Shown here: piece after piece, positions 28,859 through 30,043 of the stretch
How the letters are laid out: each line of letters begins with the position of its first letter
How positions within the stretch are numbered: position 1 is the stretch's first letter
NCBI GenBank assembly: GCA_010093485.1
Contig: MU001501.1
Coordinates: 1,567,052 to 1,631,051, forward strand
From: Karstenula rhodostoma CBS 690.94
Lineage: Eukaryota > Ascomycota > Dothideomycetes > Pleosporales > Didymosphaeriaceae
Direction: 5' to 3'
DNA: 64,000 nt
The notes under the pieces: generated by a model
What the model was told of the DNA's origin: nothing
The model's input: the letters and a program-made list of their open reading frames with translations, nothing else
Databases searched by the model: none
Made by a program: the position numbers and the translations under genes

Positions 28859-30043
28859 ATGCGCCTCCTCGCACGCAGTGTGCTGCCCACGCGCTCGCCA
28901 CCCACGCACCGCGCACCGCACGCCCCACGCCAGCACTCGACGAGCGCTCCCAGCAAAGATGCGGCGACGGCTGCCCTGAGCCCGCGGTGGCTCTCCGACC
29001 TCAAGACGCGCGTCGGCCAATGCATCGCTTTTGGCATAAGCAGGGAACAGGTCAAGGAAGCCGGCGATATCCTGCATAATGTCAATTTCAACTGGAAAGA
29101 CCTGGTTGCTGGCAGCGAAGGCTTCCTGACTGGGAAGCACCGCTGGGGCCTTCATCGGCAGCAGGTCGCCTGGGGAGAAATGGTGAGGTTGCTTGTCGGC
29201 TCAATGTGGGTGTGGTGGCTAATGCGCTGAGGGGGGGACACAGGATAGCATGGTAAGAACAGCAGCGAATGCGTTTTCTCACAGGCAAGACTGCGTGCTA
29301 ATGTTTGCAAGGGTACGGTGCTCGATTGAACCTCAATTGGGGAGGGTGTTGACTGTGTGACAGGCCACGTCAATAACGTAACATACAATCGGTGGGCTGA
29401 GAGCGCTCGAGTCAATTGGGGCATGAACTTCGCCCGCATGGATACCGACCATAGAGATGAGTGGGAGGCTCTGGTGACGCCCAAAGGCATTGGCATGATC
29501 TTACGGAGCATCCGTACCGACTACAAGTTTGTGAGTTGCCTGCCTGTCCAGCGATAGTCTTACAGCAGAGGACCCTGTGAGCGCATGACTACGGGGTTCA
29601 AGCCAGGGTCTTTTCCCTGTTGCGCGCGTTGTACAGGAGGTCGCAGCTGCAAGGCTCATATACAAATCGTTGCTAACTGTGGTGCTACTCCAAAGCCGAT
29701 CAAGTACCCGGACCGTGTCACGGTATTGCATAGGCTTCGTTCGATGCCGAAGGCGGACACCGACCACTTTATCCTAGACGTGGTCATACTCTCCGAGCTG
29801 CATCGGAGGGTTGCAGCGCGCTGTGTCGAAGACATCGTCATGTATAACTACAAAGCAGGGAAGAAGTCCGCAATGGAGCCATTCATGATCGATATGCTGC
29901 AGGAAACATTCAACCTCCAAGAGCAGGCGAAGCTGAAGTACGGGAATAAGGCATTGGAGCTCATTCGACGGGTACAAGCACTCGAGAAGGCCTCCTGGGA
30001 TAGACCAGATGCCAAGGAGGACTTTGGCAGCGCGAATCCATAA
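28859..30043 (+). CDS. Mitochondrial hotdog-fold thioesterase-like protein with very small exons
   Basis: The N-terminus MRLLARSVLPTRSPP is Arg-rich and lacks acidic residues, as in a mitochondrial presequence. Exons: 28859-29182, 29244-29252 (9 nt), 29312 (1 nt), 29364-29530 and 29696-30043. Introns are 61, 59, 51 and 165 bp; the total is 282 aa. The conserved hotdog segment WGEMDSMGHVNNVTYNRW is spelled across four exons: Met ends exon 1, Asp-Ser-Met is exon 2, and Gly combines the single G with GC of exon 4. Downstream are YPDRVTVLHRL and SELHRRVAARCVEDIVMYNY, typical of the 4HBT-like fungal family, and a coiled C-terminus. The substrate is unknown. Removing the whole 29253-29363 block as one intron would shift the frame and hit a stop at once. 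Confidence 0.82.
29244..29312 (+). other. 9-nt exon and 1-nt exon separated by a 59-bp intron
   Basis: The GATAGCATG exon (29244-29252) follows a CACAG acceptor and precedes GTAAGA. The intron to 29311 has a GCTAAT branch-like site and ends GCAAG. A single G at 29312 then precedes donor GTACGG, whose intron has TTGAC and ends GACAG at 29363. Both introns are of normal local length. See the matching finding. Confidence 0.65.

Follow-up and report, generated by a model that had tools for sequence, protein, structure and literature searches.

The WGEMDSMGHVNN loop of a 4HBT_2 thioesterase gene in Karstenula rhodostoma CBS 690.94 (Pleosporales, Didymosphaeriaceae) is, in all likelihood, split by three tiny introns that separate a 9-nt exon and a one-nucleotide exon, both of which are needed; the introns would be removed sequentially, and the arrangement would be derived from a 10-nt exon. 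Judged from the sequence, the one-nucleotide exon itself is very probably real and used. The gene lies within a window of 64,000 nucleotides, the whole stretch of DNA that was analysed, and joining its exons across 28859–30043 of the forward strand gives a predicted open frame of 282 a.a. without interruption. The loop would be distributed over three U2-type introns as ...GEM / GAT AGC ATG / G / GC CAC..., and at its centre the string AAG-G-GTACGG leaves a single base between two canonical GT-AG introns of viable length, 59 and 51 nt. The boundaries at which a sequence-only reading had divided 29183–29363 proved exact. A genome-wide search for introner-like repeats of the tract 29183–29363 matched the tract alone.

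Table 1 Features of the thioesterase gene, with positions in the 64,000-nucleotide window.
Feature	Position	Strand	Basis or remark
Exon 1 of the 4HBT_2 thioesterase gene (ATG to ...WGEM)	28859..29182	+	translation; deposited protein P0001; own-genome match, residues 1-109
Intron 1, 61 nt, phase 0, GTGAGG..ACAG	29183..29243	+	splice score at the 43rd percentile of 53 local introns
9-nt exon GATAGCATG (Asp-Ser-Met)	29244..29252	+	used by the single path of 131 that gives GEMDSMGHVNN; exact DSMGH in 66 of the 120 homologs listed
Intron 2, 59 nt, phase 0, GTAAGA..GCTAATG..CAAG	29253..29311	+	3' part aligns with Paraphaeosphaeria sporulosa P0002
Branch-site-like GCTAAT in intron 2; likely branch A at 29301, 10 nt 5' of the acceptor	29297..29302	+	trained branch profile; P0002 and P0130 peptides compatible
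Candidate one-nucleotide exon G, base 1 of the Gly codon in DSM-G-HVNN	29312..29312	+	path test; relatives' peptides; deposited-protein identity
Intron 3, 51 nt, phase 1, GTACGG..TTGAC..ACAG	29313..29363	+	tail in frame reads GVDCVTG
Branch-site-like TTGAC in intron 3 (A at 29352)	29349..29353	+	weak, 9th percentile
Exon 4 (GC-CAC..., HVNNVTYN...TDYKF), starts GCCACGTCAATAAC	29364..29530	+	own-genome match, residues 110-170
Intron 4, 165 nt	29531..29695	+	translation of the joined model
Last exon with stop codon	29696..30043	+	own-genome match, residues 168-282

The fourth intron exceeds all 53 local training introns, the longest of which has 160 nt; inspection by eye revealed neither a nested intron nor a [D1,2], [D2,3] or [A2,3] arrangement within it.

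The joined model is identical to the deposited protein P0001 ("Thioesterase/thiol ester dehydrase-isomerase [Karstenula rhodostoma CBS 690.94]"; 100% over 282 residues in the protein database search), an entry that may originate from a predictor rather than from transcripts. It belongs to the Pfam family 4HBT_2 (PF13279), which it matches with 80.7 bits (E=1.5e-22) at a curated cut-off of 25.5. The WGEMDSMGHVNN block is also present in solved thioesterase-type chains, namely 2fuj (MDSMGHVNN), 5byu and 3qy3, and we take its Asp to be the counterpart of the residue that is catalytic in 4-hydroxybenzoyl-CoA thioesterases. One copy of the gene was found, the own-genome search returning just its three exon matches. 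The product is a 4HBT_2 hot-dog thioesterase, perhaps a mitochondrial one, with N-terminal targeting as a guess.

Combining every GT-AG intron of 40 nt or more within 29150–29400 produced 549 paths of one to three introns, 131 of them open in frame. These were scored with a family profile for which 76 of the 120 homologs listed were used and P0001 was left aside. The path with the 9-nt and one-nucleotide exons ranked first of the 131 (438.8 bits) and was the only one that encodes GEMDSMGHVNN. Both paths that followed (433.6 and 429.5 bits) also use the one-nucleotide exon, and the top path without it (429.3 bits) reads GEMQRMRHVNN. G29312 serves as an exon in 11 of the 131 open paths overall and in all five of those containing DSMGHVNN. 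Removal of 29253–29363 as a single 111-nt intron leads to DSMATSIT and a stop after 116 a.a., and skipping of both microexons leads to a stop after 113 a.a.; when the 9-nt exon alone is skipped and the G is kept, the frame stays open over 279 a.a. and reads GEMGHVNN. G29312 is needed for both the frame and the conserved motif, as is characteristic of nuclear one-nucleotide exons. In the model with the 9-nt and one-nucleotide exons the spliced join would read ATGGGCCAC, as opposed to ATGGCCAC for the contrary join. An intact WGEMDSMGHVNN can be encoded at 29183–29363 only if the 9-nt exon and G29312 are both included. These results, together with the identity to the deposited protein and the fit of the G and its adjoining splice signals to peptides from two relatives, bear out the sequence-only reading in its statements that the conserved segment requires Met, Asp-Ser-Met, G29312 and GC-CAC to be joined, and that a single 111-nt intron would shift the frame into an early stop.

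The splice scores were obtained with a home-made gene finder that carries a strong intron penalty, and the percentiles refer to 53 self-trained introns of the same genome, which are few and self-selected. On this scale, introns 2 and 3 stand at the 26th and 38th percentiles in overall splice score and at the 51st and 32nd percentiles in length. The earlier description of both introns as having good ends holds with a reservation: the AAG acceptor of intron 2 is weak (2nd percentile), and the same applies to the intron 3 branch site. Treated as a single intron, the 111-nt tract has a summed splice score likewise at the 38th percentile, so that its ends do not by themselves decide between the one-intron and the two-intron reading; the length of such an intron is at the 91st percentile. 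An AGGGT that leaves at least 45 nt on both sides is expected 0.018 times per 111-nt intron (21 usable positions). With the further demand that the acceptor, branch and donor scores be at least as high as those here, the expectation is 0.0002 per 111-nt intron, a value that rests on six such sites, the G29312 site included, in 528,000 strand-bases of the same genome.

The state of the motif was compared across the 120 homologs listed of 407 matches, with Didymosphaeriaceae assigned by taxonomy and P. minitans by its genus. Among the listed homologs, the motif is intact in one of the seven named Didymosphaeriaceae, P0001 itself, and in none of the six others; it is intact in 77 of the 113 remaining rows and not intact in 36 (P = 0.0015, which is indicative only, since the rows are related). 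In total, 42 of the 120 listed public models have no intact GEM-DSMG-HVNN junction (P0002, P0003, P0004, P0041, P0062, P0071 and 36 more), and exons of 9–10 nt and of one nucleotide have perhaps been missed in these models. A one-nucleotide exon may underlie the failing gene models in Didymosphaeriaceae, where all six other named rows among the 120 listed are affected.

Mis-annotated proteins of relatives served as fossils in which intron sequence is preserved. From 26 fragments and from those 42 of the 120 listed rows that have no intact motif, eight read-through segments were picked by eye, back-translated and aligned to the tract; three (P0002, P0130 and P0041) aligned uniquely, and two of these, P0002 and P0130, cover the 3' end of intron 2 and extend as far as the G or past it. 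P0002, from Paraphaeosphaeria sporulosa, reads GEM-QMHLLTCRLHANVCK-G-HVNN. Its part before the G maps to 29266–29311 as the best of 646 tiles and ends in AAG directly 5' of G29312, the last 15 bases (GCTAATGTTTGCAAG, from branch site to acceptor) aligning without conflict, and it continues with Gly and HVNN, the expected product of splicing after the G into GC-CAC. P0130, which starts MLMIQGYDAQNC..DIDCVTGHVNN, aligned best to 29296–29361, over TGCTAATG, CAAG, G and GTACG. The P0130 peptide fixes some of the bases only and leaves the third base of the Gly codon free; were that base G, its intron 3 would have 50 nt. The best alignment of P0041, from P. minitans, covers 29312–29361, and the aligned peptide (..GGDADCVT) would permit GCTGAC at the position of the intron 3 branch-site-like element. 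No significant alignment was obtained for the other five of the eight segments (Bimuria P0003, Kalmusia P0004, Pseudopithomyces P0071, P0133 and P0134).

The Bimuria string DSM/VRRTADA.. was considered as read-through of an ATG/GTAAGA donor; the match was not significant (241 of 646 tiles; 11 of 115 ATG/GT sites) and was not counted as support. In searches for the relatives' DNA, the 8 pattern matches in viral contigs and the 32 in prokaryote genomes encoded no relative. Read-throughs of the form ..CVTG/HVNN, like the tail of intron 3, are found in P0041, P0020, P0027, P0057, P0130, P0134 and P0147, suggesting that the 3' end of intron 3 may be common to several genera.

One alternative is that the assembly lacks a G after ATG or after ACAG; the true structure would then be a 10-nt exon, such as the outgroups seem to have, and one undivided intron of 111 nt. 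A G-run is a frequent site of a lost base, the outgroup proteins P0036/P0039 and P0026 resemble 10-nt exons ending in ATGG, and the splice score of the single intron is ordinary; nevertheless, we regard a base-calling or assembly error as very unlikely. The single intron would be unusually long for this genome, whereas lengths of 59 and 51 nt are ordinary, and an equally good AGGGT would hardly be expected inside it, as calculated above. Moreover, the branch site, AAG, G and donor fit the peptides of P. sporulosa and P0130, which come from independent genomes, and the deposited protein has the Gly, although the window DNA lacks a G at the junction. It is highly improbable that the tract is instead spliced in frame in another way, through a 4-nt exon CATG, an acceptor at 29344 or omission of the 9-nt exon. 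The CATG exon (29249–29252), combined with a first intron of 66 nt and the undivided 111-nt intron, yields GEM-HGHVNN, and the acceptor 29344 path reads DSMGVDCVTGHVNN. All three are canonical GT-AG solutions that keep the frame, with splice scores of 5.3+8.0 for CATG, 8.8+4.0 for acceptor 29344 and 6.4+8.3 for the skip, but they do so at the price of a lost or distorted conserved block (421.0, 427.6 and 421.4 bits, respectively, versus 438.8). None of them equals the deposited protein, the CATG and skip paths lack the Asp that we take to be catalytic, and the skip path still uses the one-nucleotide exon. GEM-HGHVNN and GEMGHVNN (29183–29311 removed, G29312 kept) could possibly be made as inactive isoforms that lack the Asp.

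The nested-looking 111-nt tract, the likely sequential removal and the existence of a fungal precedent bring to mind a stwintron in the published sense, in which one intron lies inside another and interrupts its donor, branch site or acceptor. This interpretation is extremely improbable: introns 2 and 3 each possess a complete GT..branch..AG before any splicing, G29312 would be retained in the mRNA, and no frame-keeping [D1,2], [D2,3] or [A2,3] arrangement was found by eye. The sequence-only reading had likened the tract to stwintrons while holding it unequal to the published types; the inequality stands, and the tract is better placed outside the stwintron types than as a new one, no core splice signal being interrupted. 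At a recursive splice site (ratchet point, 0-nt exon), AG is joined straight to GT and zero exonic bases are kept. We rejected this class for AAG-G-GTACGG, where the G is needed in the product.

From the frame requirement and the compatible signals in relatives, we infer that the tract is spliced as three separate introns, with the spliceosome pairing sites over each short intron (intron definition). With a single base between them, the intron 2 acceptor and the intron 3 donor would not be occupied at once, so that the two introns would be removed successively. Stepwise removal is likely on these steric grounds, and the argument made for APC11 is analogous. The earlier suggestion of stepwise splicing is retained with an adjustment: no new donor results from the excision of intron 2, as GG precedes GTACGG both before and after it. 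Likewise, GG follows the intron 2 acceptor even if intron 3 is removed first. On the exon side both sites thus keep GG in either order, G29252 replacing G29311 or G29364 replacing G29313, without any site having to be created, and both orders would give the same mRNA, since the bases flanking the remaining sites are unchanged.

As to the origin of the arrangement, the outgroups Parastagonospora P0036/P0039 (DSMGNYYYY) and Plenodomus P0026 (DSMGMLLSP), both Pleosporineae, read as if they contained ATGG/GTAAY and ATGG/GTATG, which would correspond to an exon of 10 nt and, behind it, one phase-1 intron. Relative to these outgroups, the one-nucleotide exon looks derived, and given their 10-nt exons and the common 3' end of intron 3, either intron 2 or the loss of an exonic G would be the newer event. 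The present structure would probably stem from a 10-nt exon (GATAGCATGG) with one phase-1 intron, in or before Didymosphaeriaceae, and the simplest route would be that an additional intron was acquired between ATG and G. The tract may, tentatively, be a frozen intermediate of intron sliding, in which a phase-0 intron arose one base 5' of the old phase-1 intron and both positions coexist in Didymosphaeriaceae. If so, later loss of the old intron would result in a one-base intron shift with the protein unchanged. A single-nucleotide intron shift, an intron moved by one base, was reportedly described by Fekete in 2017, and is said by a citing paper to proceed via a stwintron; compared with that case, two adjacent intron positions would coexist here. 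The read-throughs of Aureobasidium P0060, P0070, P0095 and P0103 and of P0069 end in ..TNS/HVNN or ..DSMTS/HVNN, which suggests an intron at yet another phase of the same Gly codon and hints at shifting intron positions.

A different origin for the same two-intron structure is conceivable but doubtful: a G was lost from the 10-nt exon, and the frame was rescued when an AG-G-GT that lay cryptic within a long intron was recruited. Such a rescue would account for exon 2 ending in ATG while the G sits in the tract, it fits the 3' end that intron 3 has in common with the outgroups (..CVTG read-throughs), and a route of this kind is suggested by Nelson and Syed for Fusarium CYP621A in the accessible text of their paper (PMC12940212). 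It needs a long ancestral intron, however, whereas the retained intron of Bathelium P0053 would have 57 nt, and intron 3 alone has 51 nt here and would have 50 nt in P0130. The contrast between 10 nt in the outgroups and 9+1 nt in K. rhodostoma offers a testable case for intron gain and a one-base intron shift.

One-nucleotide exons had been called extremely rare, which is right, with the qualification that cases have been published, one of them fungal: within the portions available of the open-access literature searched, nuclear examples come from three genes, APC11, VPS55 and CYP621A. The same search of the open-access literature returned no report of a one-nucleotide exon for this thioesterase gene. 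One-nucleotide exons have also been published for mitochondrial genes, according to the accessible parts of PMC12308204 and PMC5436844. The 2026 paper on Fusarium (PMC12940212) counts its own case as the second example, and its accessible parts omit VPS55, published in 2022 (PMC8831610).

What is new here is a one-nucleotide exon in another gene and another fungal class, beside a 9-nt exon; the kind is already known. A further case brings into sharper focus how the spliceosome deals with an acceptor and a donor that are separated by a single base. The closest parallel is Fusarium CYP621A which, in the accessible text of PMC12940212, is likewise a fungal nuclear gene with a frame-required AG-G-GT microexon in a conserved motif, the G belonging to a Gly codon. 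The same text reports transcript reads across the exon and errors at this exon in nearly all automatic models. The two cases differ in gene and class, in the position of the G, which is the central codon base in CYP621A, and in the tract, which is 139 nt long in F. graminearum (PMC12940212); the available parts of that paper also report no neighbouring 9-nt exon, unlike the thioesterase gene. Arabidopsis APC11 (PMC4674806, 2015) shares a frame-required one-nucleotide exon, which is constitutive there, and its authors, as far as the accessible text goes, favour intron definition with successive removal; unlike the present case, APC11 is a plant gene with A as the single base, a 422-nt tract and reporter constructs (PMC4674806). 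Plant VPS55, in the accessible parts of PMC8831610 (2022), has a conserved one-nucleotide exon that is absent from annotations, and it differs in being a plant gene and in having transcripts with and without the exon in Selaginella, hornwort and liverwort. Stwintrons, as portrayed in the available text of PMC5639578 (2017), resemble the K. rhodostoma tract in comprising two U2 introns in one fungal tract with sequential removal, sometimes in two orders leading to one product. They are unlike it in that the internal intron of a stwintron splits a core signal (PMC5639578), whereas here the base between the introns would be exonic and the signals are intact.
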